Assembly: GCF_029892285.1 (NCBI RefSeq)
Contig: NZ_JARXVM010000009.1
Span: 1 to 64,000 of the forward strand
DNA: 64,000 nt
Source of the DNA: Rhizobium sp. SG_E_25_P2
GTDB lineage: Bacteria > Pseudomonadota > Alphaproteobacteria > Rhizobiales > Rhizobiaceae
Direction: 5' to 3'
How positions within the stretch are numbered: position 1 is the first letter of the stretch; each line of letters starts with the position of its first letter. Made by a program: the position numbers and the translations under genes. Positions 36,616 to 64,000 of the stretch are shown here, one piece after another. The notes below the pieces were generated by a model, which saw nothing but the letters and a program-made list of their open reading frames with translations, had not been told where the DNA came from and did not search any database.

Positions 36616-38595
36616 TCAGCGGCGTGCGATATACATCGGACCGCCTGTATGGGCCGGAAATCCATAGCCGTTGACGAGCACCAGATCGATATCGCTCGCT
36701 CTGAGCGCCACGCCGGAGTCCAGAAGACGCTGGCCCTCTTCCGCCATAGCTCTCAACAGTCGATCCAGGATGTCCTGTTGTGAAAAGGGCTGCGGAACGA
36801 TGTTTTTGGATGCGCGCAGCTCGGCGATGAGCGTGGTCACATCGGCATCCACCATGCGTTTGCCGTCGACATATTTATACCAGCCCAGGCCGTTCTTCTG
36901 GCCGAAACGGCCGGCCTCGCAGAGTCTGTCTGCGATTTCGACATAGCGTTCGCCGGGATCGCGCGTCGCCGCCTGTCGCTTGCGCCGCGCCCAGGCTATT
37001 TCAAGCCCGGCGAGATCGGAAATGGCGAAAGGTCCCATAGCCATGCCGAAGGCTTCGATCGCGCTGTCGATCTCATGCGGCTCTGCGCCGTCTTCCACCA
37101 GATATTCGGCCTCGCGGCGATAGGCGGAGAAGATGCGGTTGCCGATAAAGCCCTCGGTGACGCCCGAATAGATCGGCAGCTTGCGCATCGCCTTGGCGAC
37201 GGCGAAGCCGGTGGCGACGATCTCGGGGGCTGATTTTGCGCAGTGCACCACTTCAATCAGCCGCATGATATGCGCTGGCGAAAAGAAGTGCATTCCGAGC
37301 ACGCGCTCCGGGCGGGCAGTTGCGGCGGCGATGACATCGGGATCGAGATAAGAGGTGTTGGTGGCCAGAATGGCGTCGTCGCGCACCACTCCGTCGAGCC
37401 TCTTGAAGAGATCGATCTTGACGTCGAGATCGTCGAAGACAGCTTCGATCACCAGATCAGCGTCGGCGAGAGCGGCGAGGTTGCTGGCGACGGTGAGACG
37501 AGCGAGCCGCCCAGCATGCGCTGCCGCATCGATGCGCCCGCTAGAAAGCGCCTTGTCAAGAATGCCCGTGATGCGAAGCCTGCCCTTGTTGGCGGCGTCC
37601 TCGGTCTGTTCGACAACGGTGACGCGAAAGCCGGCATCGAGGGCGGCAACCGCAATGCCTGATCCCATCAGTCCCGCGCCGACCACGCCGATCGTCTCAA
37701 TTTTGCGTGGCGCCACGCCATCAAGCCCGGGAATTTTACCGGCTTCGCGTTCGGCGAAAAACACATGCCGGAGCGCCTGTGATTGCGGCGATTGTTTGAG
37801 CTTCAGGAAGGCGGCGCGTTCCTGGGCAAGACCATCCGCGAGCGGCGTCCGGCCTGCGGTTTCGATCAGCGTCACCGCTTCGCCCGGGGCGATCTGGCCT
37901 TTGGCTTTCGACAAGACTTTGCGCTTTGCAAATGCGATGTCTTCCTCGGAAGAGGGGGGAATAGTGATCTCCCCGGTCTTACGAAAACGATCGCCAGCGG
38001 CCTCCGACGCAACTTCGATAGCATGGGCGACGGGGTTTGCGGCGATGTCATCAATGACGCCCAGCGACAGCGCTTCTTCCGCTTTGACGCTTCGGCCCGA
38101 ACCGATCAGGTCGATGGCGACGGCTGCACCCGTCAGCCGCGGCAGGCGCTGTGTGCCGCCCGCGCCGGGGATGAGGCCCAACTTGACTTCGGGAAAGGCG
38201 ACAGAGGCGCTCAGTGCGGCGATGCGATACTGGCAGGCCAGCGCAATCTCCAGCCCGCCGCCGAGCGCTGCGCCATTCAATGCAGCAATGACCGGCTTCG
38301 ATGAACTTTCGAGCAACTGGCAGACATCGGGCAGAATGGGCGCGACCGGCGGTTTGTCGAATTCGGTAATGTCGGCGCCGCCCACGAAGATCCGTCCGGC
38401 GCCTGTCAAAACGACAGCTTTGATAGCAGCGTCATTCCCGGCGTCGGCGATCCCCGCCGCCAAACCCTGCCGCATCGCAAGCGAGGCGGCGTTGACGGGA
38501 GGGTTATCGAGGGTGATCAACAGCACGCCGTCCTGCGCCACGCCGCTGACACAGTTCGAATAGGTCCTCACCGGGTTTGTTGCCGCGCTTACCAT
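36616..38595 (-). CDS. bifunctional enoyl-CoA hydratase / 3-hydroxyacyl-CoA dehydrogenase
   Basis: A 659-residue fusion protein of the FadB/FadJ or peroxisomal type. The crotonase half spans about residues 1-190, with oxyanion glycines in ALNGAALGGGLEIALAC and a proximal glutamate in PEVKLGLIPGAGGTQ. The NAD-binding dehydrogenase half begins at about 300 (GVVGAGLMGSGIAVAALDAG) and has the catalytic His in GMHFFSPAHIM. Two C-terminal helical domains end the protein. It would hydrate and oxidise ring-opened CoA thioesters from the aminobenzoyl-CoA pathway. It is the last gene of the operon. I used the ATG at 38595; a GTG at 38601 overlaps the RidA-like stop. Confidence 0.88.
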   Translation of the reverse strand: MVSAATNPVRTYSNCVSGVAQDGVLLITLDNPPVNAASLAMRQGLAAGIADAGNDAAIKAVVLTGAGRIFVGGADITEFDKPPVAPILPDVCQLLESSSKPVIAALNGAALGGGLEIALACQYRIAALSASVAFPEVKLGLIPGAGGTQRLPRLTGAAVAIDLIGSGRSVKAEEALSLGVIDDIAANPVAHAIEVASEAAGDRFRKTGEITIPPSSEEDIAFAKRKVLSKAKGQIAPGEAVTLIETAGRTPLADGLAQERAAFLKLKQSPQSQALRHVFFAEREAGKIPGLDGVAPRKIETIGVVGAGLMGSGIAVAALDAGFRVTVVEQTEDAANKGRLRITGILDKALSSGRIDAAAHAGRLARLTVASNLAALADADLVIEAVFDDLDVKIDLFKRLDGVVRDDAILATNTSYLDPDVIAAATARPERVLGMHFFSPAHIMRLIEVVHCAKSAPEIVATGFAVAKAMRKLPIYSGVTEGFIGNRIFSAYRREAEYLVEDGAEPHEIDSAIEAFGMAMGPFAISDLAGLEIAWARRKRQAATRDPGERYVEIADRLCEAGRFGQKNGLGWYKYVDGKRMVDADVTTLIAELRASKNIVPQPFSQQDILDRLLRAMAEEGQRLLDSGVALRASDIDLVLVNGYGFPAHTGGPMYIARR

Positions 38596-38597
38596 GA

Positions 38598-38996
38598 TCA
38601 CGCGTCCGGAATGACGGCGGTGGCCTGAATTTCGATCTTGGCGCGATCCTCGACAAGCGCCACGACCTGCATGGCGGCCATGGCGGGGTAGTGCCGACCG
38701 ATCGTGTCGCGATAGGCCTGACCGATGCCTTTGAGATTGCTGAGATATTCCTGCTTGTCGGTGAAGTACCAGGTCATCGAAGTGATATGTTTGGGCTCGG
38801 CGCCGGCTTCGGCCAGCACGGCCACGACATTCTCCAGCGTCTGGCGCACCTGACCGACGAAATCATCGGTTTCGAACTGGTTCTGGCCGTTCCAGCCGAT
38901 CTGGCCGCCGACGAAGATCATGCGTCCGCGCGCCTCGACGCCGTTGGCGTAGCCGATGGGCTTGGCCCAGCCTTCAGGTTGCAGGATCGTGTGCAT
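38598..38996 (-). CDS. RidA-family protein with altered active site
   Basis: A 132-residue YjgF/YER057c/RidA-fold protein. Classical RidA enzymes hydrolyse reactive enamines and imines to ketones and ammonia, using an arginine (in PARSCVEV) to hold the substrate carboxylate. In this protein the equivalent stretch is PAMAAMQV, with Met106 where that arginine should be. The partner glutamate (Glu122, IEIQA) is kept. Its operon encodes 2-aminobenzoyl-CoA monooxygenase/reductase, whose product is a cyclic enamine CoA ester without a free carboxylate. I therefore infer enamine hydrolysis of that ester. Loss of deaminase activity is the alternative. The gene overlaps the thioesterase by 23 bases. 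Confidence 0.8.
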   Translation of the reverse strand: MHTILQPEGWAKPIGYANGVEARGRMIFVGGQIGWNGQNQFETDDFVGQVRQTLENVVAVLAEAGAEPKHITSMTWYFTDKQEYLSNLKGIGQAYRDTIGRHYPAMAAMQVVALVEDRAKIEIQATAVIPDA

Positions 38997-39402
38997 GGTC
39001 GGTCTCCAGATGATGGGTCAGCGCGGCGCGGAGGTTGTCCGGCCACGGGCAGGAAGAATGGGTGTCGAGGGATGTAGCGACCAGCCGATGGCTGGCGGTG
39101 AACAGAACGTCGCCGCGCGCCGACACAGTGTGGTCGAGATCGAGCGAGGTGCGGCCGATGCCGCTAACCTTGATGGCAAATTGCAGCAGGTCGCCGTGAA
39201 AGCCCGGTCGCTTGAAGGTCAGATTAAGGCTCACCGTTGGCGTGCCCATCCTCAGATCTTCGATCATCGGCCGACGAGGCGCGCCGATCGACGCGAAGAA
39301 CTCCTCGATCGCGCCGTCGAGCAGACGGAGGTAAGACGGATAATAGGCGATGCCGCTCGGATCGCAGTCGCCGAAACGTAGCGGCGTTGTGCAATGGAAC
39401 AT
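38974..39402 (-). CDS. 4-hydroxybenzoyl-CoA-thioesterase-type hotdog thioesterase
   Basis: A 142-residue hotdog-fold protein. The N-terminal LRFGDCDPSGIAYYPSYL motif holds the conserved aspartate (Asp14) that acts as base or nucleophile in 4-hydroxybenzoyl-CoA thioesterases. It would release CoA from a dead-end or pathway thioester, protecting the CoA pool during aromatic degradation. The gene lies three bases after the acyl-CoA dehydrogenase and overlaps the RidA-like gene by 23 bases, so translation is coupled. The precise acyl group is unknown. Confidence 0.82.
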   Translation of the reverse strand: MFHCTTPLRFGDCDPSGIAYYPSYLRLLDGAIEEFFASIGAPRRPMIEDLRMGTPTVSLNLTFKRPGFHGDLLQFAIKVSGIGRTSLDLDHTVSARGDVLFTASHRLVATSLDTHSSCPWPDNLRAALTHHLETDHAHDPAT

Positions 39403-39405: not shown

Positions 39406-40575
39406 TCAGCCCGCCTTTATCAGTTCGCGCGCCACGATCAGTTTCTGCACTTCGGTCGCGCCCTCATAGATCCTGAGCGCGCGGATTTCCCGGTAGAGGC
39501 TCTCGACGATCTCGCCTGTCCGGACGCCGCGCCCCCCGAACAATTGCACGGCGCGGTCGATCACACTTTGCGCGGTCTCGGTCGCAGTCATCTTGGCCAT
39601 GGCCGCCTCCTTGGTGGTCGGCAGCTTCTGCACATCACGGCGCCAGGCGGCGCGATAGGTGAGGAGGGAAGCGGCATCGATGCCGGTCGCCATGTCACCT
39701 AGCGAAGCCTGGGTCAGTTGCAGATCGCCGAGGGTCGCGCCGAACATTTTTCTCGTCCTGGCATGCGCGAGCGCTTCATCCAGCGCCCGCCGGGCAAAGC
39801 CGATGGCAGCGGCGGCAACTGAGGCGCGGAAAATGTCGAGCGTGCGCATGGCGATCTTGAAGCCTTCGCCCGGAGCGCCGAGCCTTCGCGACGCCGGTAT
39901 GCGGCAACCGTCGAAGCGGATGGTGGCGAGCGGATGCGGCGCGATCACATCGATACGCTCCGTGATTGAGAAGCCGGGATCATCGGCAAAGACCACAAAA
40001 GCCGAGATGCCGCGCGTGCCCGGGGCTTCGCCGGTGCGGGCGAAGACGGTGTAGACATTGGCGATGCCGCCATTGGAAATCCAGGTCTTTTCACCATCGA
40101 GCACATAGCTGTCGCCATCCTCGCGAGCTGCGCAGGCCATGGCGGCGACATCGGAACCAGCTTCCTTTTCCGACAGCGCGAAGGCGGAGATCCATTCGCC
40201 GGAGGTCACCTTGGGAAGAACGGCGGCTTTCAGCTCGTCCGATCCCGAGAGACCGATCGCGCCGGTGCCCAGGCCCTGCATGGCGAAGGCGAAATCGGCG
40301 AGCCCGTCATGCCAGGCCAGCGTTTCGCGCGCGAGGCAGACGGCGCGGGAGTCGATCGCGGTTTTGCCCGCGTCGCCAGTGGCGAGGCCAAGAAGTCCCG
40401 CGTCCCCCAGCCGCCTGACGAGGTCGCGGCAGGCGCGGTCGGTGTCGTGGTGATCGACAGACGCGAGCGCGCCGCTCGCGGCGAACGCATCTAGTCGTTC
40501 AGCGACGGCGCGATGTTCCGGACCGAAAAACGGCCAGTCGAGATGGTCGCGGGTGGGGCCTGTAAGCGTCGACAT
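39406..40575 (-). CDS. acyl-CoA dehydrogenase
   Basis: A 389-residue FAD-dependent acyl-CoA dehydrogenase. The family motifs [14 protein letters not shown] and [13 protein letters not shown] bind flavin and substrate. The C-terminal helical domain contains [11 protein letters not shown] and ends with the catalytic glutamate in [10 protein letters not shown]. It would introduce a double bond into an alicyclic or ring-opened CoA thioester from 2-aminobenzoyl-CoA metabolism. It shares one base with the preceding enoyl-CoA hydratase gene, and three bases separate it from the thioesterase gene. Confidence 0.88.
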
Positions 40576-41426
40576 CAGTTGCCCTCGAAGACAGGCTTGC
40601 GTTTGGCGGCGAAGGCTTCGAAGGCGCGGCGGAAATCGCCTGTGGCCATGCAGATCGCCTGCGCCTGGGCTTCAGATTCGATCATTTCATCGATGCCCAT
40701 CGCCCATTCCTGGTTTAGCATGGTCTTGGTGACGCCATGGGCGAACCAGGGGCCATCGGCGATCGAACGCGCGAGATCCGCCGCTGCTTTATCCAGATCT
40801 TCGGCGGCATGCAGGCGATTGAAGAAGCCCCAGCGTTCGCCTTCCTCGGCGCTCATGAAGCGGCCGGTATAGAGCAGTTCGGCGGCGCGTCCCTGGCCGA
40901 TGATGCGCGGAAGGATGCCGCAGGCGCCCATATCGGCGCCGGCGAGACCAACTCGTGTGAACAGAAATGCGGTCTTGGCCTCCGGCGTCGCAAGCCGGAG
41001 GTCCGACGCCATGGCGAGGATCGCGCCTGCGCCGGCGCAGATGCCGTCGATGGCCGCCACGATCTGCTGTGGGCACTTCTTCATCGCTTTGACGAGATCG
41101 CCGGTCATGCGGGTGAAGGCCAGGAGATCCGGCATTTTCATGCGCGTCAGCGGTTCGATGATCTCGAACATATCGCCGCCGGAAGAGAAATTGCCGCCTG
41201 CGCCCTTGAGCACGATCGTCCTGACATCCGAGGCGTAAGCGAGATCGCGGAAGAGATCGCGCAGCTCCGCATAGCTTTCGAAAGTCAGCGGGTTCTTCTT
41301 GTCCGGCCGGTTCAGCGTCAGCGTCGCCACCCGTCCGTCGCCTTCGACCGACCACAGGAAATGCTTGGGGGCATAATCCCGGAAGGGGCGGAGATGGCCG
41401 CTCATGCTTGCCTGTTCGTTGCTCAT
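40575..41426 (-). CDS. enoyl-CoA hydratase/isomerase family protein
   Basis: A 283-residue crotonase-fold enzyme. The oxyanion-hole segments are [15 protein letters not shown] and [18 protein letters not shown]; the second catalytic region is [16 protein letters not shown]. The start is the ATG at 41426, which overlaps the SDR stop by four bases; the longer open frame reaching 42044 is out of the family. In this operon it could hydrate a double bond or hydrolytically open the ring after the monooxygenase/reductase step. Which of these it does cannot be decided from the sequence. Confidence 0.86.
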
Positions 41427-42208
41427 CCTGTCATGACCTCCCCGCCGGCGATGGCGATCGCCTGGCCTGTGATTGCATCTGAGCCCGGCGACGCCAGCCA
41501 GAGAACCGCGTCCGCAACTTCTTCCGGCTTCACCAGCCGCCCTTGCGGATTCGACTTCGTGAATTCGGCCAGCGCCTGTTCTTCCGTCCGTCCGGTTTTC
41601 GCGACGATTTCGGCGATCGAGCGGGCGATGATCGGCGTATCGGTAAATCCGGGGCAGACGGCGTTGACCGTCACGCCCTTCTTGGCGAGCTCCAGCGCCA
41701 GTGACCGGGTCAGGCCGACCACGCCATGTTTCGCAGCGCAATAGGCGGAGACATAGGCATAGCCGGTCAGGCCGGCGGTCGATGCGACATTGACGATGCG
41801 CGCGCCCTTGCCGAACGCCTTGAGATCGGCAAGCGCCGCCTGCGTGACGTTGAAGACGCCGGTGAGATCGACCGTGAGAACATGTGTCCACATGTCGAGC
41901 GTCGTCTTCTCGAACGGCGCGCTCGGCGCTTCCCCGGCATTGTTGATGAGGATGCTCACCGGCCCAAAGGCGGCGCGGGCCGTCTCCAGCCCCGCCGCAA
42001 TCGCCGCCGTATCGGTCACATCGAAGCCGGACAGGACGAGGCAACCGCCCTCAGGCAGTTCGCGCGCCAACGCTTCCAGCGGCTCCCGGCGACGGCCTGC
42101 CAGCGTTACCCTCGCGCCGGCCTGCACGAGACTGCGCGCGATGGCGGCGCCGATGCCGCTGCCGGCGCCGGTGACGAGAGCGTGACGTCCTTGAAGCGGA
42201 GACGGCAT
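41423..42208 (-). CDS. SDR-family dehydrogenase (3-hydroxyacyl-CoA type)
   Basis: A 261-residue short-chain dehydrogenase with TGAGSGIG near residue 15, NNAGEAP near residue 90, serine in [10 protein letters not shown] and YCAAK. The C-terminus ends with [11 protein letters not shown]. It resembles 3-hydroxyacyl-CoA or 3-hydroxybutyrate dehydrogenases. Encoded three bases after the aminobenzoyl-CoA monooxygenase/reductase, it probably oxidises or reduces an alicyclic hydroxyl of the first pathway intermediate. The ATGA overlap with the hydratase couples the two. Confidence 0.84.
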
Positions 42209-42211: not shown

Positions 42212-44536
42212 TTACTTTGCTCCGCCGCCGGCCTGCTGGGCGCGGACGAGATTGGTCTCATATTGCGCCTTGCTGGAGTAATACTGCTTGGGCCAGGCCA
42301 CTGATTGCAGCCCGATCTTAGCGGCCTCGTGCAAGGCCCAGGCCGGATCGGCGAGATGCGGACGGGCGACAGCGCAGAGATCGGCGCGACCGGCCGCGAT
42401 GATCGAATTGGCGTGATCGGCTTCCGAAATGGCGCCCACGGCGATGGTGGGGATGCCAACTTCGTTGCGGATCTTGTCGGAGAAGGGCGTCTGGAACAGG
42501 CGGCCGTAAACGGGCTTTTCTTCCTTCCAGACCTGACCCGACGAGCAGTCGATCATGTCGGCGCCGGCTTCCTTGAACATTGCGGCGAAGATCGCGGCGT
42601 CCTCGGGCGTGTTGCCGCCGTCGAACCAGTCATGGCAGGACAGGCGCACCGAAATCGGCTTGTCCTGCGGCCAGACTGCGCGGATGGCGCGGAACACGTC
42701 CAGCGGATAACGGGCGCGGGCCGCGTGATCGCCGCCATATTCGTCGGTGCGGCGGTTGGTGAGCGGCGACAGGAAGCTCGACAAGAGATAGCCATGCGCG
42801 CAATGGAGTTCGAGCCAGTCGGCGCCGGTGGTCGCGGCCAGTTGTGCGGCGCGAACATGGTCCTGCAGCACCCGGTCGAGATCGGCGCGATCCATCGCCT
42901 TCGGCGTCTGGCTATGCTTGAGATAGGGAAGGGCGGAGGCCGACAGCAGCGGCCATGAACCCTCTTCGAGCGGCTGGTCGATGCCGTCCCAGGCGAGCTT
43001 GGTCGCTCCCTTGCGGCCGGCATGGCCGATCTGGATGCCTACTTTGGCAGGCGAGTTGAAATGCACGAACTCCACCAGCCGCTTCCAGCCGTCCGCCTGC
43101 TCCTCGTTCCAGAGACCGAGGCAGCCGGGCGTGATCCTGCCATCCGGCGAGACGCAGGTCATTTCGCCGAAGACGAGGCCGGCGCCGCCCATGGCGCGCG
43201 AGCCGAGATGAACGAGATGGAAATCGTTGATCAGGCCGTCCTTGGCCGAATACATCGCCATCGGCGACATCACCACGCGGTTCGGCAGCGTCACGTTCCG
43301 GACCGTGAAGGGCGTGAACATCGGCGGCAGGCAGCGGTCGTTCGCTGTTGCGTCGAGGCCGGCCTTGCGGGCGAACCAGCGCTCATAGCCTTCCAGCCAG
43401 TTTTTATCGCGAAGGCGCAGATTTTCATGGCTGATGCGCTGCGAACGGGTCAGCATCGAATACATGAACTGTTCCGGCTCCAGCGTGTCGGCATAGCGCC
43501 GCCCCACGACCTCGAACCATTCCATGGCGTTGCGCGCCGCATTCTGGATGCGGGCGACATCGACGCGGCGGATCTCCTCATAGGCGGACAGCACATCCGG
43601 GATCTTCGCCTTGCCGTGACCGGCCTTGTTGAACTGATTGGTCAGCTCGATCGCGTCGTCGATAGCGAGCTTGGTGCCCGAACCGATGGCGAAATGAGCC
43701 GTATGGGCGGCGTCGCCCATCAGCACGACATGCGAATTGCCGTTGAAATGGCTCCACTTGCCGCAGATCAGGCGATTGAAGTTCAGCCAGGCCGAACCGC
43801 GCAGATGCCGGGCATTGGTCATCAGTTCGGCGCCTTCCAGCACCTCGGAGAACAGGTCTTGGCAGAAATCGATCGAGCCCTGCTGGTCGAGCGCGCCCAG
43901 CCCATGTTTCTCATAGGCTTCTTCGGTCGTCTCGACGATGAAGGTCGAGGTCTGGTCGTCGAACTTGTAAATATGCGCCTGGAACCAGCCATGGTCCGTC
44001 TTGCGGAAATCGAAGGTGAAGGCGTCGTAGAGTTTGTTGGTGCCGAGCCAGATATAGCGGTTCGGCCGCGTGACGAGATCCGGCTGGAAAACGTCGGGAT
44101 AATGATTGCGGACTCTGGAATTGAAGCCGTCGGAGGCGATGATCAGGTCGGCGTCTGGGAAGTCGAGATCGCTGTCGACGTCGGTTTCGAACTTCAGTTC
44201 GACGCCGAGCGCTTCGCAGCGGCGCTGCAGGATGTTCAGCAGCTTCTTGCGGCCGATGCCGACAAAGCCGTGGCCGGTGGTGCGTTGGCGCGTGCCCTTG
44301 AACAGAACTTCGATGTCGTCCCAGTGATTGAAGGCGTCCTGGATTTCGGCGGCGCTTTCCGGATCCCAGACCTTCATGGCCTGCATGGTGGCGTCGGAAA
44401 ACACCACGCCCCAGCCGAATGTGTCGTAGGGGCGGTTGCGCTCGACCACGGTTATGGAATGCGACGGGTCGAATTTCTTCATCAGCAGGCTGAAATAGAG
44501 CCCGGCGGGGCCGCCGCCAATACATACGATCCGCAT
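42212..44536 (-). CDS. 2-aminobenzoyl-CoA monooxygenase/reductase-like fusion
   Basis: A 774-residue two-domain flavoprotein. Residues 1-380 form a FAD monooxygenase ([13 protein letters not shown], then [22 protein letters not shown]). Residues about 400-770 form an old-yellow-enzyme-type FMN reductase ([21 protein letters not shown] in part, [22 protein letters not shown] in part). This architecture and length match the 2-aminobenzoyl-CoA monooxygenase/reductase of aerobic anthranilate degradation. That enzyme hydroxylates and then reduces the ring of anthraniloyl-CoA to a non-aromatic enamine ketone. Salicylyl-CoA hydroxylases are close relatives. It is the first gene of a seven-gene operon with its own promoter and operator at 44574-44616. 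Confidence 0.87.
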
Positions 44537-48513: not shown

Positions 48514-48514
48514 C

Positions 48515-54414: not shown

Positions 54415-54486
54415 GATTGGCTCCGTTGTTCCCCAGTGTTCCGCCGGATCCAACCACCCGACGGCAGGCATTATTTGCTCGGAATG

Positions 54487-54521: not shown

Positions 54522-54584
54522 GCGGATTTTTTGAGGTCGACTTTTTTCGCTGCGCTTGGGAAGAAAAAGTCATTTATATTCATT

Positions 54585-54741: not shown

Positions 54742-56895
54742 ATGGCTGAACGATCGTTTGCCCGCGAGGTCGAAGACCTCAAGCTGGGCGAAGGCGACAT
54801 CTTTCGCGGCGAGGGCATCCTCGCTATCACCAAGGCGCTGTTACAGTCCGGCGTCTCCTATGTCGGCGGCTATCAGGGCTCGCCGATCTCGCATCTGATG
54901 GATGTGCTCGCGGACGCCAAGGACGTGATGGATGATCTCGGCGTCCATTTCGAAACCTCGGCGTCGGAAGCGGCGGCGGCGGCGATGCTGTCGGCTTCGG
55001 TGATGTATCCGGTGCGCGGCGCCGTCACATGGAAATCCACCGCCGGCACCAATGTCGCCTCCGACGCGCTGTCCAACCTGTCCTCGGGCGGCGTGACCGG
55101 CGGGGCGATGATCATCATCGGCGAAGACTATGGCGAAGGCTCCTCGATCATGCAGGAGCGCAGTCATGCTTTTGCAATGAAGTCGCAGCTCTGGCTGCTG
55201 ACGCCGCGCCCCAATCTGCCCTCTATCGTCGCAATGGTCGAACAGGGTTTTGAACTGTCCGAGGCGTCCAATACGCCCGTGATGCTCCAGGTCGGCATTC
55301 GCAGCTGTCACGTGCATGGCCAGTTTGTCGCCAAGGACAACAAGCGCCCGGATTATACGCTGCGCCAGGCGCTGGAGCAACCGATGCGTGATGTCAGCCG
55401 CATCGTGCTGCCGCCGGCATCCTTCGTGCATGAGAAGGAAAAGCTGGAGCGGCGCTGGCCGGCGGCGGTGAATTTCATCCGCGAGCGGAAGCTCAACGAA
55501 TATTTCGGTCCTGATCACGGCGAGATTGGCATCATCCTGCAGGGCGGGCTCTATAACGGCGTGCTCAGGGCGCTGCAGCAGCTCGGGCTTGCCGATGTCT
55601 ATGGCGAATCCTCGGTGCCGCTTTACGTGATGAACGTCTCTTATCCGATGGTTGACGAAGAGATCGTCGATTTCTGCGTCGGCAAGAAGGCCGTGCTGAT
55701 GGTGGAGGAGGGCGCGCCCGAATATATCGAGCAGTCGCTCAACACGCTGTTGCGCCGCCGCGATATCCAGACCCGTATCGCCGGAAAAGATGTGCTGCCG
55801 ATGGGCGGGGAATATACCGCGCCAGTGCTGGTCAAGGGTCTCAAGACCTTCATCGAAATGTACCAGCGCAATCTGCTCGGCAATCAGCCGCCGATCCCCG
55901 ATCCCGGCCCGGTGTTGGCCGATCCGCGCGTCAAGGCGTTGGCGGAAGTGGTGCCGCCGCGCCCTCCAGGCTTCTGCATCGGCTGTCCCGAGCGACCGAT
56001 TTTCGCAGCGATGAAACTGGTGGAGCAAGATCTCGGCCAGCATCACGTCTCCGGTGATATCGGCTGTCACCTCTTCTCCATTCTGCCGCCGTTCAATATC
56101 GGCGCGACCACGATGGGCTACGGGCTGTCGCCGGCTGCCGCCTCCGCCTTCAACGTCAAGGCGGACAAGCGCGTGATCTCGGTGATGGGCGATGGCGGCT
56201 TCTGGCACAATGGCCTGGCGACTTCGGTCGGCAATGCGGTGTTCAACAAGCAGGATGGCGTCATTCTCGTCGTCGACAATTTCTATTCGGCGGCCACCGG
56301 CGGCCAGGATGTTCTGTCGTCGCGCGCTGACAATCCGCGCCGCAAGACCAAGAATTCCATCGTCGACGCCGTCAAGGGCGTCGGCGCGACCTGGGTGCGC
56401 CAGATCGATCACACCTATGACGTCACGAAGATGCGCGACACGCTGAAGGAGGCGCTGACCACCAAGGAAGAGGGGCCGAAGATCATCGTCGCCTCGTCGG
56501 AATGCATGCTCAACAAGCAGCGCCGCATCAAGCCTCTGTTCGCCAAGGCGGTGAAAGAGGGCAAGCGCATGGTCAAGGAGCGCTTTGGCGTCGACGAAGA
56601 TGTGTGCACCGGCGATCACGCCTGCATTCGTCTGTCCGGCTGTCCGTCGCTGTCGGTCAAGCATACCGACGATCCACTGAAGGACGATCCGGTGGCGGCG
56701 ATCGACAACAATTGCGTCGGTTGCGGAAATTGCGGCGAAGTGTCGGAGGCGGCTGTTCTCTGTCCGTCCTTCTATCGCGCCGACATCATCCACAACCCGA
56801 CCGGCTGGGATCGTTTTGCCGCGTCTGTCCGCGCCAAGGTGATCGGCTTGCTGCAGGCCCGCCGCGCCGCCGGCCGCGTTCGCTTCGCTGATTGA
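54742..56895 (+). CDS. indolepyruvate:ferredoxin oxidoreductase-like subunit A (2-oxoacid oxidoreductase)
   Basis: A 717-residue thiamine-diphosphate enzyme of the IorA family. The N-terminal pyrimidine-binding domain starts near residue 30 (GVSYVGGYQGSPISHLMDVL). The PP-binding domain has FCIGCPERPIF near residue 412, GDIGCHLF, and GDGG at 483. The C-terminal ferredoxin-like part shows Cys622/628/634 and Cys658/661/664/674, enough for [4Fe-4S] clusters. Such enzymes oxidatively decarboxylate aryl 2-oxoacids to acyl-CoA. Indolepyruvate is the textbook substrate. Beside isatin hydrolase-like and aminobenzoyl-CoA genes, isatinate (2-aminophenylglyoxylate) is an attractive alternative that would yield 2-aminobenzoyl-CoA directly (inference). 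Confidence 0.85.
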   Translation: MAERSFAREVEDLKLGEGDIFRGEGILAITKALLQSGVSYVGGYQGSPISHLMDVLADAKDVMDDLGVHFETSASEAAAAAMLSASVMYPVRGAVTWKSTAGTNVASDALSNLSSGGVTGGAMIIIGEDYGEGSSIMQERSHAFAMKSQLWLLTPRPNLPSIVAMVEQGFELSEASNTPVMLQVGIRSCHVHGQFVAKDNKRPDYTLRQALEQPMRDVSRIVLPPASFVHEKEKLERRWPAAVNFIRERKLNEYFGPDHGEIGIILQGGLYNGVLRALQQLGLADVYGESSVPLYVMNVSYPMVDEEIVDFCVGKKAVLMVEEGAPEYIEQSLNTLLRRRDIQTRIAGKDVLPMGGEYTAPVLVKGLKTFIEMYQRNLLGNQPPIPDPGPVLADPRVKALAEVVPPRPPGFCIGCPERPIFAAMKLVEQDLGQHHVSGDIGCHLFSILPPFNIGATTMGYGLSPAAASAFNVKADKRVISVMGDGGFWHNGLATSVGNAVFNKQDGVILVVDNFYSAATGGQDVLSSRADNPRRKTKNSIVDAVKGVGATWVRQIDHTYDVTKMRDTLKEALTTKEEGPKIIVASSECMLNKQRRIKPLFAKAVKEGKRMVKERFGVDEDVCTGDHACIRLSGCPSLSVKHTDDPLKDDPVAAIDNNCVGCGNCGEVSEAAVLCPSFYRADIIHNPTGWDRFAASVRAKVIGLLQARRAAGRVRFAD

Positions 56896-56905: not shown

Positions 56906-58465
56906 ATGAACGAGCATGTTTCTATCGATGCATCCCGCGCCGGCCGTCTGGCGACAGACAAGCCGCTTGCCATCGCCGTCGTCGCCATGGGCGGACAGGG
57001 CGGCGGCGTCCTGGCCGACTGGATTGTCGGAATGGCCGAAGCGCAGGGCTGGATGGCGCAGAGCACCTCGGTGCCGGGCGTCGCCCAGCGCACCGGCGCG
57101 ACCATCTATTACATCGAAATGCTGCCGGAGCGGGATGGGCTTGCGCCGATCTTCTCGCTGATGCCGACGCCTGGGGATGTCGATGTCGTCATCGCAGCCG
57201 AGTTGATGGAGGCCGGGCGCTCCGTGCTGCGCGGGTTGGTGACGCCGGAAAAGACCACCCTGATCGCTTCCACCCATCGCTCTTTTGCGGTGGCTGAAAA
57301 ACAGACGCCTGGCGATGGCATCGGCAATCCCGAAATCGTGGTCGAGGCGACCGACTTTGCCGCGCGCCGCACCATCGCCTTCGACATGGAGACGCTTGCG
57401 ACCCGCAATGGCAGCGTCATTTCCGCCTCGATGTTCGGCGCGCTCGCCGGCTCGGGCGCTCTGCCATTCGCACGCGAAGCCTTCGAAGCAGTAATCCGCG
57501 CTGGCGGCAAGGGCATCGAGCCCTCGCTGAAAGCCTTCGCCGCTGCCTTCGACCGGGCGCGGGACAAGCCGCGTGATCCCGTATCCGCTAAACCGGTCAA
57601 GCGGCTCGATCCGCTGCCGGCCTCTGCTGGTCATGCGGAACTCGATCGTCTCGTGGCGCGCATCTGCGCGGATTTCCCGGAGACGCTGCACGCCATGCTC
57701 TATGCGGGCGTCAAGAAGCTCACGGATTTCCAGGATCCCGCCTATGCGGCTGAATATCTCGACCGGGTCGCGGCGCTCTTCGGGCTCGACCGGGCGCAGG
57801 GCGGTGCCGCCAAGGACTTTGCCTTTTCCCAGCAAGCGGCGAAATATGTCGCGGTCGCCATGGCCTATGACGATGTCATCCGCGTGGCGGATCTCAAGGT
57901 GCGTCAATCCCGGTTCGAACGCGTGCGGAAGGAAGTCGGGGCCAAGGATGATCAGATCGTCTATATGACGGAATATATGCATCCGCGCATGGAGGAAGTC
58001 TGCGGCACGCTGCCGAAGGGCCTGGGGCTGTGGGTCGAAAATCGGCCGGGCCTGTTCAATTTCCTCGATCGTCGGATCAACAAGGGACGCCGGGTGAAGA
58101 CGGCGACGCTCTTCTGGTTCCTGGGACTCTATCTGGTCTCGGCGCTGCGCTCCCGCCGTCGCGGCACGCTACGGCATTCCCGCGAACTGGAGCATATGAA
58201 CGCCTGGCTGAAAGCGGCGACGGATCTGCTGCCGGTAAATTATGATCTCGCGACGGAGGTTCTCGCCACGCGTCGCTTGGTGAAGGGATATTCCGACACC
58301 CATTCGCGCGGCCTGTCGAAATTTGATCGCGTTCTCTCCGCTCTTCCCATGCTGCGCAACCGCGAAGATGGCGCCGACTGGCTGCGGCGTCTCAAGCAGG
58401 CGGCGCTACTCGATGAAGGCGGCGTCGCGCTGGATGGCGCGCTCAAGACGGTGGCGAGTCTCTGA
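56906..58465 (+). CDS. indolepyruvate oxidoreductase-like subunit B with C-terminal extension
   Basis: A 519-residue partner of the preceding gene. Residues about 15-220 form the gamma/beta-type domain of 2-oxoacid oxidoreductases (AIAVVAMGGQGGGVLADWIVG in part, then QSTSVPGVAQRTGATIYYIEM in part), where CoA-dependent chemistry is coupled to the A subunit. The rest (250-519) is the long extension seen in proteobacterial versions, of unknown role. A clear gaggaga site precedes the ATG, 10 bp after the A-subunit stop, and a strong terminator follows at 58549-58588. The two genes form a self-contained operon. Confidence 0.84.
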   Translation: MNEHVSIDASRAGRLATDKPLAIAVVAMGGQGGGVLADWIVGMAEAQGWMAQSTSVPGVAQRTGATIYYIEMLPERDGLAPIFSLMPTPGDVDVVIAAELMEAGRSVLRGLVTPEKTTLIASTHRSFAVAEKQTPGDGIGNPEIVVEATDFAARRTIAFDMETLATRNGSVISASMFGALAGSGALPFAREAFEAVIRAGGKGIEPSLKAFAAAFDRARDKPRDPVSAKPVKRLDPLPASAGHAELDRLVARICADFPETLHAMLYAGVKKLTDFQDPAYAAEYLDRVAALFGLDRAQGGAAKDFAFSQQAAKYVAVAMAYDDVIRVADLKVRQSRFERVRKEVGAKDDQIVYMTEYMHPRMEEVCGTLPKGLGLWVENRPGLFNFLDRRINKGRRVKTATLFWFLGLYLVSALRSRRRGTLRHSRELEHMNAWLKAATDLLPVNYDLATEVLATRRLVKGYSDTHSRGLSKFDRVLSALPMLRNREDGADWLRRLKQAALLDEGGVALDGALKTVASL

Positions 58466-58778: not shown

Positions 58779-59711
58779 ATGACGGCGAATGTATTCAGCG
58801 GCTGCATGCCCGCGCTGATGACCCCTTGCAATCCGGACCGGACGCCGAATTTTGATCTGCTCGTCCGCAAGGGCAAGGAGCTGATTGCCGCGGGAATGTC
58901 GGCTGTCGTCTATTGCGGCTCGATGGGCGACTGGCCGCTGCTGACGGATGAACAGCGCCAGGAAGGCGTGAGCCGTCTGGTGGAAGCCGGCGTGCCGGTG
59001 ATCGTCGGCACGGGCGCGATCAACACCAAGTCCGCCGTCAGCCATGCTGCGCATGCCGCCAAGGTCGGAGCCAAGGGCCTGATGGTCATCCCGCGCGTTT
59101 TGTCGCGCGGCGCCTCTGTCTCAGCGCAGCGCGATCATTTCTCGGCTATTCTTTCGGCGGCAAAGGATCTGCCGGCGGTCATCTATAATAGCCCCTATTA
59201 TGGCTTCGCCACCCGCGCAGACCTGTTCTTCGACCTGCGTTCGAAATTCTCCAATCTGGTGGGTTTTAAGGAATTCGGCGGCAAGAAGGACATGACCTAT
59301 GCGGCCGAAAACATCACCTCGGGCGATGACGCGCTGACGCTGATGGTCGGCGTTGACACCGGCGTCTATCACGGCTTCGTTAATTGCGGCGCCGGCGGCG
59401 CCATTACCGGCATCGGCAATGCGCTGCCCAAGGAAGTGCTGCATCTGGTGTCGCTCTGCGAAAAGGCCGCCAAGGGCGATGCCGCCGCCCGCCGCGAAGC
59501 GCTCGAACTCGAAGAAGCGTTGACGGTGCTTTCGACCTACGATGAGGGCCCGGATCTCGTCCTGCACTACAAGCATCTGATGGTGCTGAACGGCGATAGT
59601 GAATACACGCTGCATTTCAACGAGACCGACGCTCTCAGCGCCTCGCAGCAGCGTCATCTCGAAAACCAGTACGCCCTGTTCAAGGCCTGGTACGCGGCCC
59701 GCTACGCCTGA
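58779..59711 (+). CDS. DapA-family lyase, probable 1-pyrroline-4-hydroxy-2-carboxylate deaminase (HypD-like)
   Basis: A 310-residue class I aldolase-fold enzyme of the dihydrodipicolinate synthase family. The Schiff-base lysine is Lys164 (VGFKEFGG) and the assisting tyrosine Tyr136 (IYNSPYYG). From memory, the N-terminus (SGCMPALMTPCNPDRTPNFD) strongly resembles the rhizobial hydroxyproline-pathway deaminase, which converts 1-pyrroline-4-hydroxy-2-carboxylate to 2-oxoglutarate semialdehyde. No other hydroxyproline gene is present here, so it may instead act in the aromatic island or be a bystander. It is a single-gene unit with a good aggaga site, its own palindromic operator and a terminator. 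Confidence 0.75.
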   Translation: MTANVFSGCMPALMTPCNPDRTPNFDLLVRKGKELIAAGMSAVVYCGSMGDWPLLTDEQRQEGVSRLVEAGVPVIVGTGAINTKSAVSHAAHAAKVGAKGLMVIPRVLSRGASVSAQRDHFSAILSAAKDLPAVIYNSPYYGFATRADLFFDLRSKFSNLVGFKEFGGKKDMTYAAENITSGDDALTLMVGVDTGVYHGFVNCGAGGAITGIGNALPKEVLHLVSLCEKAAKGDAAARREALELEEALTVLSTYDEGPDLVLHYKHLMVLNGDSEYTLHFNETDALSASQQRHLENQYALFKAWYAARYA

Positions 59712-59785: not shown

Positions 59786-60292
59786 TCAGATGTCGTTTTG
59801 CCGGATGTTGCGCAGGATCCGGTGCAACACGCCGATAAAGGCCTTGTATTCCTCTTCCTCGATGCCCTCGAACATCTTGAGGAAATCGTCATACATGGTC
59901 GGCCACAGTTTTTCGAAGGCGGCGCGACCTTCCTCCGTGATCGTCACGTCGCGGATGCGCATGTCGTCGGGGCGCGGCTGGCGGCGGATGAAGCCTTGTT
60001 CTTCCAGTGAATCCAGCGTCCTGCTCATGGTCGACTGTTCGGTGACGGCGAAAACGGACAATTCGTTGATGGTGACCGAGGGCGTGATCGACAATATGGC
60101 CAGCGCCCGCATTTTCGCAGTGGTGATATCGAGCGCCTTGAGATCGTCGGCCAGATTGGCGTTCCAGCGCGCGATCACCCTGTTCATGAGATAGGGCGCG
60201 AAATTGTTGAGCCCGATTTCTCCCATGGTCGGGCGCTTGTTCTCAGGCCCTTCGACCGGCCTGAACACCGCGCCAGAAAATCGATCCGTCAT
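59786..60292 (-). CDS. MarR-family transcriptional regulator
   Basis: A 168-residue MarR protein. An N-terminal dimerisation helix precedes a winged helix at about residues 60-125 (INELSVFAVTEQSTMSRTLDSL in part, wing around RRQPRPDDMRIRDVTITEEG in part). It lies 13 bp after the flavoprotein gene and is probably co-transcribed with it. MarR proteins bind AT-rich palindromes of about 20 bp and often respond to aromatic acids, so it is a good candidate for either the TTTTAA-N2-TTAAAA sites or the TGCATATGAG motif. Regulators of this family also control indole-acetate degradation in other bacteria. Confidence 0.88.
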   Translation of the reverse strand: MTDRFSGAVFRPVEGPENKRPTMGEIGLNNFAPYLMNRVIARWNANLADDLKALDITTAKMRALAILSITPSVTINELSVFAVTEQSTMSRTLDSLEEQGFIRRQPRPDDMRIRDVTITEEGRAAFEKLWPTMYDDFLKMFEGIEEEEYKAFIGVLHRILRNIRQNDI

Positions 60293-60305: not shown

Positions 60306-61895
60306 TCATGTCAGCGATGAGGCCAGAAGGAAGCCGGAGCCGCCGCCAAGGCCTGGCCCGGGATGCGTTGACGCGCCGATGTGGTAAAGCCCGGGAACAT
60401 GGGTGCGGTGGTTAACCGAGGACTTGAACGGGCGCCAGAGGAAAAACTGATCGACGCCGCAAAAGCCGCCATAGGGATCGCCGCCGACGAGGTTCATGTT
60501 CATGACTTCGAGATCGCTCGGCGCATAGGCGCGGCGGGCCAGCACATTCTCGGACCAGCCGTCGATATGGCTTTCGAGAATGCGTTCGACGCGATCGGCG
60601 AAGCGTTCGCGCAACTCTTCAGTCCAGCGGCCATCGGCGGGGATCGGCAGTTCAGCGGCGGCGTCGCCCTTGATGTAGCGCGGCGTCTCAGGGAGCTGCA
60701 GCCACAGGATCGACATGCCTTCGGGCGCGCGGCTCGGATCGAGCGCAGCGGGTTGGCCGACGCAGATGGTCGGCACGGCGGGCAGGAGACCGCGCTCGCA
60801 TTCATTGGCGGCGCGCGACACGCCGTCGAGACCCGGGGTCAGATGCAGCAGCGCCACCTGGCCGAGTTCGCCGCCGGCCTTCCAGCGCGGCGGGGATTTC
60901 AGCGCATAATGGATCTGCATATTGCCCTTGCCGTAGCGATAGGACTTCAGCCCTTCGCCCACTTCTGCGGGACGCGGCTTCGCTGACGTCTTCAACAGCC
61001 GGTCGTAAAGCTGGGTCGGCGTCACCGAGGCGATCACGCCGCTCTTGGCCTGAAGCATCTCGCCGCTGGCGAGACGAACGCCGTTCGCGCGGCCGCTTGC
61101 GTCTTCGGTCACGACATCGACATCGGCATGTGTGTGGATCTCGCCGCCTTGGTCCGTGATCAACCTTTCGAACGCCTTCAGCAGATTGTCGGCGCCGCCC
61201 TTGACGATCGGGCAGCCGGCCAGTTCGATGGCGAAGCCGATCACCTTCAGCATTTCGCCGGAATAGGCGCTTTCGGGGTTCAGGCCGCAATGCAGAACCC
61301 AAGGCGCGAACAGCGCCTGCAGTTCCTCGGAGCGGTAGGTGGTTTCAAGATGCGATCTGCCGCTGACCAAGGCTTCGCCGAACCAGGCCGCCAGACCGCG
61401 CGGTCCGCGCCGCCAGGCTTCCTTCAGTACGGTTTTCAACACGCTGCCCGACCAGAGCGAGCCGCCCAGCAGCGAAAACAGGAAGGGCGCGTCGGCGCCA
61501 AGCCTGTCCATCTCGCGCGAAAAGGCCTGTCCGTCGCCAGTGGCGAAGGCGTCGAAGGCTGAGACGTTGCGCTTGCGGTTCATCGACAGGATGGCATGGC
61601 GGCCATCCGGCATCAGAACGCCGGTGGGCAGCGGCGCATGGGCGAATTCGAGCCCGCGCGCTTCGAGATCCTTGCCGAGCGCGCCATAGGCGGGCGAGGT
61701 CAGGAACAGCACCATGGTCGTCGCCATGACATCATGGCGGAAGCCGGGTTCCGTGATTTCTTCGGTGCGCAGGCAACCGCCGATGCGGTCATTGCGCTCC
61801 AATACGAGCACCTTCTTGCCCTTCTTGCCGAGAAGCGCAGCTGCGATCAGCGCATTGATGCCGCTGCCGACGACGATATAGTCATGGATGCTCAT
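60306..61895 (-). CDS. phytoene-dehydrogenase-like FAD oxidoreductase
   Basis: A 529-residue flavoprotein of the NAD(P)/FAD-dependent amine oxidase/phytoene desaturase superfamily. The FAD-binding motif is at the N-terminus (YIVVGSGINALIAAALLGKKG in part), with NDRIGGCLRTEE next. The C-terminal GLYHIGASTHPGPGLGGGSG motif closes the FAD site. It oxidises or desaturates a C-C or C-N bond; no carotenoid genes are near. It is encoded between the isatin hydrolase-like gene and the MarR gene on the same strand, and is paralogous to the flavoprotein at 63029. A role in oxidising an indoline-type intermediate is possible but unproven. Confidence 0.82.
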   Translation of the reverse strand: MSIHDYIVVGSGINALIAAALLGKKGKKVLVLERNDRIGGCLRTEEITEPGFRHDVMATTMVLFLTSPAYGALGKDLEARGLEFAHAPLPTGVLMPDGRHAILSMNRKRNVSAFDAFATGDGQAFSREMDRLGADAPFLFSLLGGSLWSGSVLKTVLKEAWRRGPRGLAAWFGEALVSGRSHLETTYRSEELQALFAPWVLHCGLNPESAYSGEMLKVIGFAIELAGCPIVKGGADNLLKAFERLITDQGGEIHTHADVDVVTEDASGRANGVRLASGEMLQAKSGVIASVTPTQLYDRLLKTSAKPRPAEVGEGLKSYRYGKGNMQIHYALKSPPRWKAGGELGQVALLHLTPGLDGVSRAANECERGLLPAVPTICVGQPAALDPSRAPEGMSILWLQLPETPRYIKGDAAAELPIPADGRWTEELRERFADRVERILESHIDGWSENVLARRAYAPSDLEVMNMNLVGGDPYGGFCGVDQFFLWRPFKSSVNHRTHVPGLYHIGASTHPGPGLGGGSGFLLASSLT

Positions 61896-61955: not shown

Positions 61956-62741
61956 TTATTTGCTGACCAGGGCCAGGGCGCGGATCGGAGACCCCGTGCC
62001 CTTGACGAATTTCAGCGGCGCGGCGATCAGGATCGCGCCCTTCGGCGGCAACTGGTCGAGGTGGCAAAGGCTGGCGAGACCGTAACGGCCGGCCTTGTGC
62101 ATGAGGTTATGGGCGGGGAAGGGCGGGTTCATACCGCCTGCGGAGCCGGCGTCGGTGCCGATGGTTTCCTGCCCCCAGCCCATGATGTTTTTGGAGACGA
62201 GATATTCGATCGCTTCGGCTGTCGGTCCCGGCGAATGCGGGCCGTTCTCGTCGGCGTTCAGGAAGGTTTCGGTGGAGCCGTTGCGCTTGTACCAGTCGGT
62301 GCGCATCACCACCCAGCTATTGGCTTCGATCTCGCCATGCTCGGCTTCCCAGGCCTTGATGCTGTCGATCGTCAGCAGATAATCAGGGTTCTCAGCGGAT
62401 TCCTTCGAGCGGTCGATGACATTGACCGGGCCGACGAAAGCCTGCGGCGGAATGGTGTCGGTGGTGTTGCCCGGCAGATCCTTGCCGGTGATCCAATGCG
62501 AGGGGGCGTCGAAATGGGTGCCGGTATGCTCGCCGAGCTCCAGCCAGTTCCAGGCCCAGAAGGGACCGTTCTCGTCATACTGCGAAATTTCATGCACTTT
62601 GACGCTCGGCGTGTTCTTGCCGAACTGCGGCGGCAGATAGAGCACCGGCGTGTTGGGACCGAGCGGCGCGGTCAGGTCGACGACCTGAACGGAACCGGAA
62701 AGAAGCGCTTTCGCGACATCGGCGAGAATGGTGGCTGACAT
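61956..62741 (-). CDS. cyclase-family hydrolase, isatin hydrolase-like
   Basis: A 261-residue metal-dependent hydrolase of the cyclase/kynurenine formamidase family. The metal and catalytic signature is HTGTHFDAPSHW: His72, His76, Asp78 and His82. The N-terminal LGPNTPVLYLPPQFGKNTP, FWAWNWLELGEH, LNADENGPHSPGPT and the C-terminal GTGSPIRALAL closely recall characterised isatin hydrolase, which opens isatin to isatinate. Kynurenine formamidases have a different N-terminal region. A good agaggga site precedes the ATG. It is divergent from a flavoprotein gene and followed by a terminator. The assignment fits an indole-degrading island. Confidence 0.82.
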   Translation of the reverse strand: MSATILADVAKALLSGSVQVVDLTAPLGPNTPVLYLPPQFGKNTPSVKVHEISQYDENGPFWAWNWLELGEHTGTHFDAPSHWITGKDLPGNTTDTIPPQAFVGPVNVIDRSKESAENPDYLLTIDSIKAWEAEHGEIEANSWVVMRTDWYKRNGSTETFLNADENGPHSPGPTAEAIEYLVSKNIMGWGQETIGTDAGSAGGMNPPFPAHNLMHKAGRYGLASLCHLDQLPPKGAILIAAPLKFVKGTGSPIRALALVSK

Positions 62742-62990: not shown

Positions 62991-63000
62991 TGCATATGAG
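62991..63000 (+). promoter_or_regulatory. TGCATATGAG motif in the divergent 62742-63028 promoter region
   Basis: An exact match to 54585-54594, here 29 bp before the flavoprotein start codon, with TATGCATA symmetry. The 287-bp gap holds no credible gene. It must carry promoters for both the isatin hydrolase-like gene and the flavoprotein. Confidence 0.35.
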
Positions 63001-63028
63001 GCTATCGACAAAAACGGGGAACGAGACA

Positions 63029-64000
63029 ATGAACTACGACGCCGTCGTCATCGGCGCTGGCCATAATGGTCTGGCGGCCGCCGTGGAACTGGCTTCGCGC
63101 GGCTGGAAAGTCGCTGTCGTCGAGGCGAAGGATGAGGCCGGCGGCGCGGTGAAAACGCGCGAAGTCACGCTTCCTGGCTTCCGGCACGATCTCTGCGCCA
63201 TGAACCTGTCGATGTTCGCGGGCTCCGCTTTCTTCAACAAGAATAAGGACGCGCTTTTCGCCCATGGTCTCGGCTTTGCTCCTGCTAGCGATTGTTTCGC
63301 CAGCGTGTTTCGCGACGGAACCTGGTTGGGCGTCAGTACCGATCTCGACGCGACGGCTGGGCGGATCGCCGGCTTTTCGGAACGCGACGCCGCCGCCTGG
63401 CGTGCGATGTTTGCGGAATTCGGGGCGGACGCGCCGCATATTTTTGGCCTGCTCGGGTCGCCGATGCCGTCCTTCGCCGCAGCGAAAGTGGCCTGGAAGG
63501 CCTGGCGCGCGCGGGGAACCGCCTGGCTCTACGAGACGGTCAAGCTGCTCCTGTCGTCGCCGCGCGATTTCCTTGACGCCCGCTTTGAAAATCCCAAGGT
63601 CAAGGCGATGATGGCGGCTTGGGGGCTGCATCTCGACTTTTCGCCGGATGTCGCGGGTGGGGCGCTCTTTCCTTATCTTGAAAGCATGGCCAACCAGGCC
63701 TTCGGCATGGTGATCGGCCAGGGCGGCGCCGATACGATCATCAAGGCGATGTCAGGTCTTCTGAAGGCCAAGGGCGGTGAGATTATTTTGGGGGCGCCGG
63801 TGGCGTCGGTGGAGACCGCTGCGGGTGCAGCGACCGGCGTACGGCTGGCTGACGGGCGCGTTCTCAACGCTAAAAGGGCAGTGATCGCCAATGCGCATCC
63901 GCAATTGGTGTTCGGCAAGCTTCTGAAACCGGAACCATCCCGCGCCGAGTTCGATGGCAAGATCGCCAAGTTTCGCGCCGGTCCGGGAACAATGATGATC
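63029..64000 (+). CDS. phytoene-dehydrogenase-like FAD oxidoreductase, C-terminus missing
   Basis: The first 324 codons of a gene cut by the window end. It starts MNYDAVVIGAGHNGLAAAVE, the FAD-binding fold of the phytoene desaturase/amine oxidase superfamily, followed by AKDEAGGAVKTREVTLPGF. An FAD-related VIGQGGADTIIKAMSGLL stretch (in part) lies around residue 230. An acgggga site precedes the ATG at 63029. It is paralogous to the flavoprotein at 60306 and divergent from the isatin hydrolase-like gene between them. It may catalyse an oxidation linked to that hydrolase; the substrate is unknown. Confidence 0.8.
   Translation, partial: MNYDAVVIGAGHNGLAAAVELASRGWKVAVVEAKDEAGGAVKTREVTLPGFRHDLCAMNLSMFAGSAFFNKNKDALFAHGLGFAPASDCFASVFRDGTWLGVSTDLDATAGRIAGFSERDAAAWRAMFAEFGADAPHIFGLLGSPMPSFAAAKVAWKAWRARGTAWLYETVKLLLSSPRDFLDARFENPKVKAMMAAWGLHLDFSPDVAGGALFPYLESMANQAFGMVIGQGGADTIIKAMSGLLKAKGGEIILGAPVASVETAAGAATGVRLADGRVLNAKRAVIANAHPQLVFGKLLKPEPSRAEFDGKIAKFRAGPGTMMI

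Follow-up and report, generated by a model that had tools for sequence, protein, structure and literature searches.

The iif/ind clusters of Acinetobacter sp. O153 and Cupriavidus sp. SHE combine an IndA/IifC-type oxygenase with a flavin reductase and a short-chain dehydrogenase/reductase (SDR), and in Cupriavidus an iif/ind cluster followed by a 2-aminobenzoyl-coenzyme A (CoA) gene cluster has been reported for indole (PMC6221969). That review lists as open questions whether isatin takes part in indole degradation and which genes then handle anthranilate. The iad auxin loci of Variovorax, Bradyrhizobium and Achromobacter carry IorAB homologues (IadAB) and a MarR regulator, with isatin and isatinic acid as intermediates; Conway et al. 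report dioxindole, isatin, isatinic acid and anthranilate in V. paradoxus CL14, use IadA and IadB as marker genes and give anthranilate, not a CoA ester, as the end product, and in the available sections of their paper we found no stated role for IadAB (PMC9613470). The iadCDE genes are dealt with in PMC10374108, and isatinic acid and anthranilate were also described in a Pseudomonas (PMC8383072). In the abm clusters of Azoarcus evansii, for which the ligase and ring-attacking steps are described, a two-domain 2-aminobenzoyl-CoA monooxygenase/reductase (ACMR) is followed by beta-oxidation enzymes (PMC4539516). Here we describe a gene island in Rhizobium sp. SG_E_25_P2 that shares genes with each of these systems and is probably a catabolic unit taking indole, or a near relative, via isatin into the aerobic 2-aminobenzoyl-CoA pathway with no CoA ligase involved. 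Contig 9 (223,940 bases; genome 5.56 Mb, 99.53% complete) carries it within its first 64 kb, and this whole stretch is called the window below.

Gene content compared with known systems

The gene content given for the island by a first-pass annotation, namely an indole oxygenase with its reductase and SDR, an isatin hydrolase, IorAB, ACMR and a beta-oxidation set, was confirmed by domain or model matches (Table 1). Missing from that annotation were the CrtO-like flavoproteins (FOX1 and FOX2), the MarR regulator and the Dpp-type transporter, all of which are found again next to IorAB and isatin hydrolase in relatives. Ten genes with small gaps run on the minus strand from 47369 to 36616, in the order flavin reductase, SDR, IndA-type oxygenase, ACMR, SDR, enoyl-CoA hydratase, acyl-CoA dehydrogenase, thioesterase, RidA and FadB-like protein; the oxygenase, its SDR and its reductase are co-directional with ACMR, from which the oxygenase is separated by 195 bp. 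Beyond the AraC regulator come a VOC protein, the transporter, the divergent IorA–IorB pair and a DHDPS-family gene, followed on the minus strand by MarR, FOX1 and isatin hydrolase, with FOX2 beginning divergently and crossing the window end.

The island differs from the iif/ind clusters in having isatin hydrolase, IorAB and flavoproteins in place of a 2-aminobenzoate–CoA ligase and, as far as scanned, a SnoaL-type protein. No match to the SnoaL domain reported for the two-domain oxygenase IifA, of which homologues are also described (PMC7225977 and PMC12538310), was found among the frames scanned, in a search limited to the window and made without an IifA query sequence. Homologues of both iad markers (IorB/IadB and IotA/IadA) are present; unlike the iad loci, the island has no iadDE-type dioxygenase, acyl ligase or thiolase among its frames scanned, and for the three PF00848 genes of the genome the best matches are models of glycine betaine monooxygenase or benzoate dioxygenase, all below cut-off. 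As in the abm clusters of relatives, ACMR is accompanied by an SDR, hydratase, dehydrogenase and RidA set, but the island operon lacks the ligase. The first-pass view that no described pathway joins these modules was only partly right: an iif route with a ligase-dependent CoA pathway (PMC6221969) and iad loci with IorAB homologues and isatin (PMC9613470) were already published, and what is new here is the proposed ligase-free joint by IorAB, common to indole and auxin breakdown.

A candidate route from indole to 2-aminobenzoyl-CoA

In the route we propose, IndA and the flavin reductase would oxygenate indole, and the IifB-like SDR would yield dioxindole (3-hydroxyindolin-2-one). In place of the IifA oxygenase, FOX1, perhaps also FOX2, might oxidize dioxindole to isatin, a step we offer tentatively. 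Isatin hydrolase would open isatin to isatinate (a 2-aminoarylglyoxylate), which IorAB, dependent on thiamine pyrophosphate (TPP) and iron–sulfur clusters, would decarboxylate oxidatively with CoA to 2-aminobenzoyl-CoA. ACMR would then hydroxylate and reduce the ring, and the SDR, hydratase, dehydrogenase, RidA and FadB-like enzymes would complete degradation.

The best solved relative of the oxygenase was 7z4x (616 bits), which we take to be an indole monooxygenase, compared with only 130 bits for StyA (3ihm) and 224 bits for the StyA equivalog model (cut-off 550), so that indole monooxygenases appear to be nearer to it than StyA is. The isatin hydrolase is 69% identical to crystallized LaIHB (177 of 257 aligned residues; 4j0n), which supports assignment to an enzyme class that would hydrolyse isatin to isatinate. 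Its sequence HTGTHFDAPSH matches the metal motif HxG[T/A]HxDxPxH taken from PMC6117287, a paper that cites kinetic measurements for LaIHB. For FOX1 and FOX2, a solved-structure search returned only distant phytoene/carotene desaturases and one oxidoreductase.

Enzymes of the IorAB superfamily are known to make acyl-CoA from 2-oxoacids, and the five-subunit phenylglyoxylate:acceptor oxidoreductase of anaerobic metabolism converts an arylglyoxylate and CoA to aroyl-CoA and CO2. The reaction proposed for IorAB is the same chemistry, but with a two-gene enzyme of the IorAB type, encoded beside oxygenases, and an ortho-amino substrate. A TPP motif (residue 483) and a C-terminal Cys cluster are present in IorA. 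From family chemistry and gene linkage, we consider it quite likely that this pair converts isatinate and CoA oxidatively to 2-aminobenzoyl-CoA. The open-licence literature searched, in the parts available, held no assignment of that conversion, a weak negative. A solved-structure search with IorA gave no relative, and a POR_N search of the genome gave no match, which means no more than that IorA lies beyond the reach of that model.

The ACMR protein (774 residues) carries a monooxygenase domain and an OYE domain. The monooxygenase/reductase gene named in the first-pass annotation is present, but NCBIfam calls PRK08255 a bifunctional salicylyl-CoA 5-hydroxylase/oxidoreductase, and we assign a probable 2-aminobenzoyl-CoA substrate from the architecture and operon partners, RidA above all, which would fit release of the 2-amino group. 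A salicylyl-CoA hydroxylase was considered and seems less likely, given the OYE domain and the adjoining RidA.

Isatin hydrolase, IorA and ACMR occur together

Across 199 genomes of the order (cut-offs E ≤ 1e-80 for IorA, 1e-150 for ACMR and 1e-40 for isatin hydrolase), isatin hydrolase was found in 22, IorA in 36 and ACMR in 61. All 22 hydrolase genomes also held IorA and ACMR, and 35 of the 36 IorA genomes held ACMR (the exception was G024). Fisher values were 3.8e-20 for hydrolase with IorA, 2.2e-13 for hydrolase with ACMR and 3.2e-21 for IorA with ACMR, and within the 61 ACMR genomes IorA was present in 22/22 with the hydrolase versus 13/39 without it (table 22/0/13/26; Fisher 6.7e-8); all of these values are too small, because kinship was ignored and some of the linked loci are kin (three come from one genus). 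In 16 of the 22 hydrolase genomes, no more than 30 kb separated the hydrolase from IorA.

A phylum sample of 378 genomes, partly overlapping the first, contained the hydrolase in 23, IorA in 27 and ACMR in 63. There, IorA accompanied the hydrolase in 21 of 23 genomes (not in G414 or G502) and ACMR did so in 22 (not in G414), while 25 of the 27 IorA genomes held ACMR (not G321 or G383); outside the order, the hydrolase genomes numbered nine, seven with IorA and eight with ACMR. Together with the comparison of individual loci below, these counts support the sequence indole, isatin, isatinate, 2-aminobenzoyl-CoA and ring reduction that the first-pass annotation had put forward.

The missing ligase

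We searched for 2-aminobenzoate–CoA ligase (AbmG) with a query from the abm operon of locus L058 (TIGR02262 above cut-off). Because a scan for the AMP-ligase signature alone missed the ligase of genome G071, ligases were sought by tblastn and by genome search with the ligase itself; up to seven candidates were scored per genome, and all eleven in the Rhizobium genome studied here (G000), with at least 50% identity defining an orthologue. The absence of an anthranilate CoA ligase, claimed earlier from the window alone, held at both scales: no AMP-ligase was found among the window frames scanned, and the 99.53% complete genome had no AbmG orthologue, its best match being 34% identical and closest to acetate–CoA-ligase-like models, below cut-off.

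The ligase lay within 15 kb of ACMR in 1/9 loci with IorA within 40 kb versus 41/46 others (Fisher 8.6e-6, likewise too small), a count that left out six contig-edge loci (in G144, G114, G176, G171, G183 and G047), two of which show a nearby ligase. Among 28 loci showing both IorA (at least 60% identity) and ACMR (at least 43%), a ligase was visible in 8 and not in 20; as L028 and L068 are one G071 locus, the distinct loci number 27, of which 8 show a ligase and 19 do not, and many of the 27 are cut off at the edge of the stretch. Where dehydrogenase and RidA were also visible (L068, L097, L100, L105, L165, L172, L177 and L183), a ligase was seen in 3/8 (L068, L097 and L172). The predicted ligase-free joint is well supported by these comparisons.

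One IorA family beside two upstream gene sets

We compared 80 named loci, each showing up to 10 kb on either side of IorA. Two upstream sets stood beside hydrolase and IorAB: either iadCDE or FOX1, FOX2, Dpp and MarR. The iadCDE set, with AMP-ligase, thiolase-like and SDR/DUF35 genes, was seen in Achromobacter, Bordetella, Zoogloeaceae and some Bradyrhizobium. Twenty of the 80 loci showed iadD (hydrolase visible in 12) and 30 showed FOX1 or FOX2 (hydrolase visible in 28). Locus L133, from Zoogloeaceae, was the only one with both iadD and FOX, and there SDR, IndA, porin, reductase, FOX1, hydrolase, IorAB, the iad set and a second hydrolase all run in one direction, with ACMR adjoining. In L181 and L182, from genomes of other families, IorA, IorB, thioesterase and ACMR are co-directional, with the hydrolase genes on other contigs.

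The window IorA was closest among the named loci to that of Metarhizobium album (91%), then to Rhizobium, and was 67–68% identical to Achromobacter loci, five of which show iadD. In a 127-row IorA tree (quick method, branch support by SH-aLRT only, midpoint root and several long branches), all rows with hydrolase, iad or FOX neighbours fell in one 114-row branch, and both labels switch many times over the tree, with 7 changes for iad and 16 for FOX. The 13 rows outside this branch (52–59% identity) showed none of these neighbours, and three of them lie beside a 35% ACMR-like gene.

Because one IorA family pairs repeatedly with both upstream sets, and the hydrolase is visible in both, isatin or isatinate is the likely metabolite shared by the two modules; ACMR would take the CoA ester, and IorAB would be the pair able to join them. 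We lean towards a wider proposal, that the IorAB/IadAB subfamily acts as an isatinate:acceptor oxidoreductase joining indole and auxin (iad) breakdown, both of which would reach 2-aminobenzoyl-CoA free of ATP cost, with free anthranilate a side product of thioester hydrolysis. If so, direct oxidation of isatinate to 2-aminobenzoyl-CoA would be one answer to the questions of isatin's part, of the later anthranilate genes and of the role of IadAB. It would also save the ATP of the ligase, account for the association of isatin hydrolase genes with IorAB and ACMR, and give auxin breakdown in root bacteria a different end product from the one now expected.

Two kinds of isatin hydrolase appear to follow the modules: 66–87% identity to the window enzyme in 27 of 28 named FOX loci (53% in L133), and 50–55% in the 12 named iad loci (compare L031 with L135 and L026); G131 has both kinds near one IorAB. 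In L192, L193 and L194, a distant IorAB (54%) lies near a 35% ACMR-like gene and an acyl-CoA ligase 35–36% like AbmG, which may point to a parallel route acting on a different aryl compound. The iad loci L133 (13796–20664) and L135 (13684–20666) encode an AMP-ligase, a thiolase-like protein and an SDR that carries a ChsH2/DUF35 portion. Steroid side-chain aldolases offer an analogy, by which this set could split dioxindole-3-acetyl-CoA into isatin and acetyl-CoA.

Alternative explanations

Several observations weigh against a ligase-free route through IorAB. An AbmG orthologue occurs somewhere in 57 of the 61 ACMR genomes of the order (one as a fragment; none in G000, G105, G085 or the 75% complete G176), so IorAB is no strict substitute for it. 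Six Rhizobium-type loci (L093–L097 and L099, with the ligase divergent from ACMR) and L172 have the ligase next to ACMR and IorAB; in G071 the ligase lies inside the abm operon, and in G068 about 31 kb from ACMR. A mutual exclusion of IorAB and ligase, considered earlier, was withdrawn, as the six Rhizobium-type loci, L172 and G071 carry both. Isatin hydrolase occurs without IorA or ACMR in G414, and in G502 (L176) it adjoins ACMR, abm genes and ligase without IorAB. In seven of the order's 36 IorA genomes (G079, G020, G133, G185, G102, G161 and G038), the only IorA has at most 60% identity and may do something else. IorA scores 285 bits with the IOR_alpha equivalog TIGR03336, short of its cut-off of 651, the role given to FOX is read from gene position only, and the kinship behind the Fisher values has been noted. 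The genome has a benzoate/anthranilate-dioxygenase-like gene, making another fate of anthranilate possible, and cultures of an iad strain contained anthranilate (PMC9613470).

Some of these points would suit an ordinary iif-plus-abm arrangement, in which indole is converted to anthranilate for activation by another ligase, and IorAB and isatin hydrolase have other uses or clear by-product isatin. Cupriavidus has such a pairing, isatin is called a possible dead-end product (PMC6221969), and the six Rhizobium-type loci do carry a ligase. Yet the genome yielded no ligase orthologue, the scanned window frames no SnoaL-domain protein, and isatin hydrolase, IorAB and ACMR are found together much more often than chance would give, so we regard this arrangement as unlikely. 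It is also improbable, in our judgement decidedly so, that IorAB is a true indolepyruvate oxidoreductase and that the island degrades tryptophan or indolepyruvate via indoleacetyl-CoA. The family name, and the NCBIfam name of IorB ('indolepyruvate oxidoreductase subunit beta family protein'), would favour this, but the shortfall against IOR_alpha counts here too, no aminotransferase match was found among the scanned window frames, IorAB is tied to isatin hydrolase and ACMR, and the IorA rows with hydrolase, iad or FOX neighbours stand in the tree apart from the 13 rows of lower identity.

The third alternative keeps the step from isatinate to 2-aminobenzoyl-CoA and differs upstream: the core (transporter, IorAB, MarR, FOX1, isatin hydrolase and FOX2) would degrade another indolic compound, such as oxindole or an oxidized auxin, with the IndA unit as an add-on. 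Just 3 named loci out of 80 showed IndA or its SDR, among them 2 of the 30 with FOX1 or FOX2; because IndA is not nearby in most relatives seen, the original substrate of the isatin module, transporter and MarR included, may indeed have been another indolic compound. For the island itself we give this a low probability, as IndA, SDR and reductase are co-directional with ACMR at close range, and in L133 the same three share one row with FOX1, hydrolase and IorAB. An indole route via isatin and IorAB remains the reading we prefer.

Features of the island and its surroundings

Table 1 Features of the island, with positions in the window.
Feature	Position	Strand	Evidence
FadB/PaaH-like enoyl-CoA hydratase + 3-hydroxyacyl-CoA dehydrogenase	36616–38601	-	Pfam ECH_1, 3HCDH_N, 3HCDH; NCBIfam FadJ/FadB models below cut-off
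RidA/L-PSP family (enamine/imine deaminase)	38598–38996	-	Ribonuc_L-PSP 2e-20
4HBT-type acyl-CoA thioesterase	38974–39402	-	4HBT_2 2.7e-15
Acyl-CoA dehydrogenase	39406–40575	-	Domain match; homologue in abm operons of relatives
Enoyl-CoA hydratase PRK08258	40575–41426	-	486 bits, cut-off 330 (scanned as 40575–41411); ATG at 41426
SDR of abm operon	41423–42208	-	adh_short
Putative two-domain 2-aminobenzoyl-CoA monooxygenase/reductase (ACMR)	42212–44536	-	FAD_binding_3 + Oxidored_FMN; PRK08255 (NF006101) 1344 bits, cut-off 1078
IndA/IifC-type indole monooxygenase	44732–45967	-	Smoa_sbd; 7z4x E 2.8e-184
IifB-like SDR	46007–46792	-	PRK08265 397 bits, cut-off 294; ATG at 46792
Flavin reductase (IifD-like)	46845–47369	-	Flavin_Reduct 1.4e-34
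AraC-family regulator, divergent from indole oxygenase operon	47528–48508	+	AraC_binding_2 + HTH_18
VOC/glyoxalase-superfamily protein	48515–49114	-	Glyoxalase_4; adjoins transporter in several relatives
Dpp/Opp-type ABC transporter, whole	49222–54573	-	Domain matches; recurs beside IorAB
Transporter binding protein	52879–54573	-	
Transporter permease	51753–52811	-	
Transporter permease	50912–51760	-	
Transporter ATPase	50052–50915	-	
Transporter ATPase	49222–50055	-	
IorA/IadA-like TPP-dependent 2-oxoacid oxidoreductase	54742–56895	+	TPP_enzyme_C; TIGR03336 below cut-off
IorB/IadB-like subunit with DUF6537	56906–58465	+	POR + DUF6537; PRK08312 716 bits, cut-off 348
DHDPS-family aldolase	58779–59711	+	DHDPS 2.6e-28; every matched NCBIfam model below cut-off
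MarR-family regulator	59786–60292	-	MarR 1.3e-12; recurs beside IorAB
FOX1, CrtO/amine-oxidase-like flavoprotein	60306–61895	-	Amino_oxidase; NF045689 144 bits, cut-off 1000
Isatin hydrolase, LaIHB type	61956–62741	-	4j0n E 1.4e-122; metal motif
FOX2, second CrtO-like flavoprotein	63029–~64600, past window end at 64000	+	ATG at 63029; read on as L001:2756–4600

Just past the window (L001:8647–13363; contig 68647–73363) lie genes for a XylR-type sigma-54 activator, a vanillate-demethylase-like oxygenase, a GntR regulator and a reductase. On the other side of the island, window positions 25652–35656 hold ABC transporter genes, an ADP-ribosylglycohydrolase, a PfkB kinase, an Asp/Glu racemase and a GntR/UTRA regulator, as far as seen unrelated to the island.

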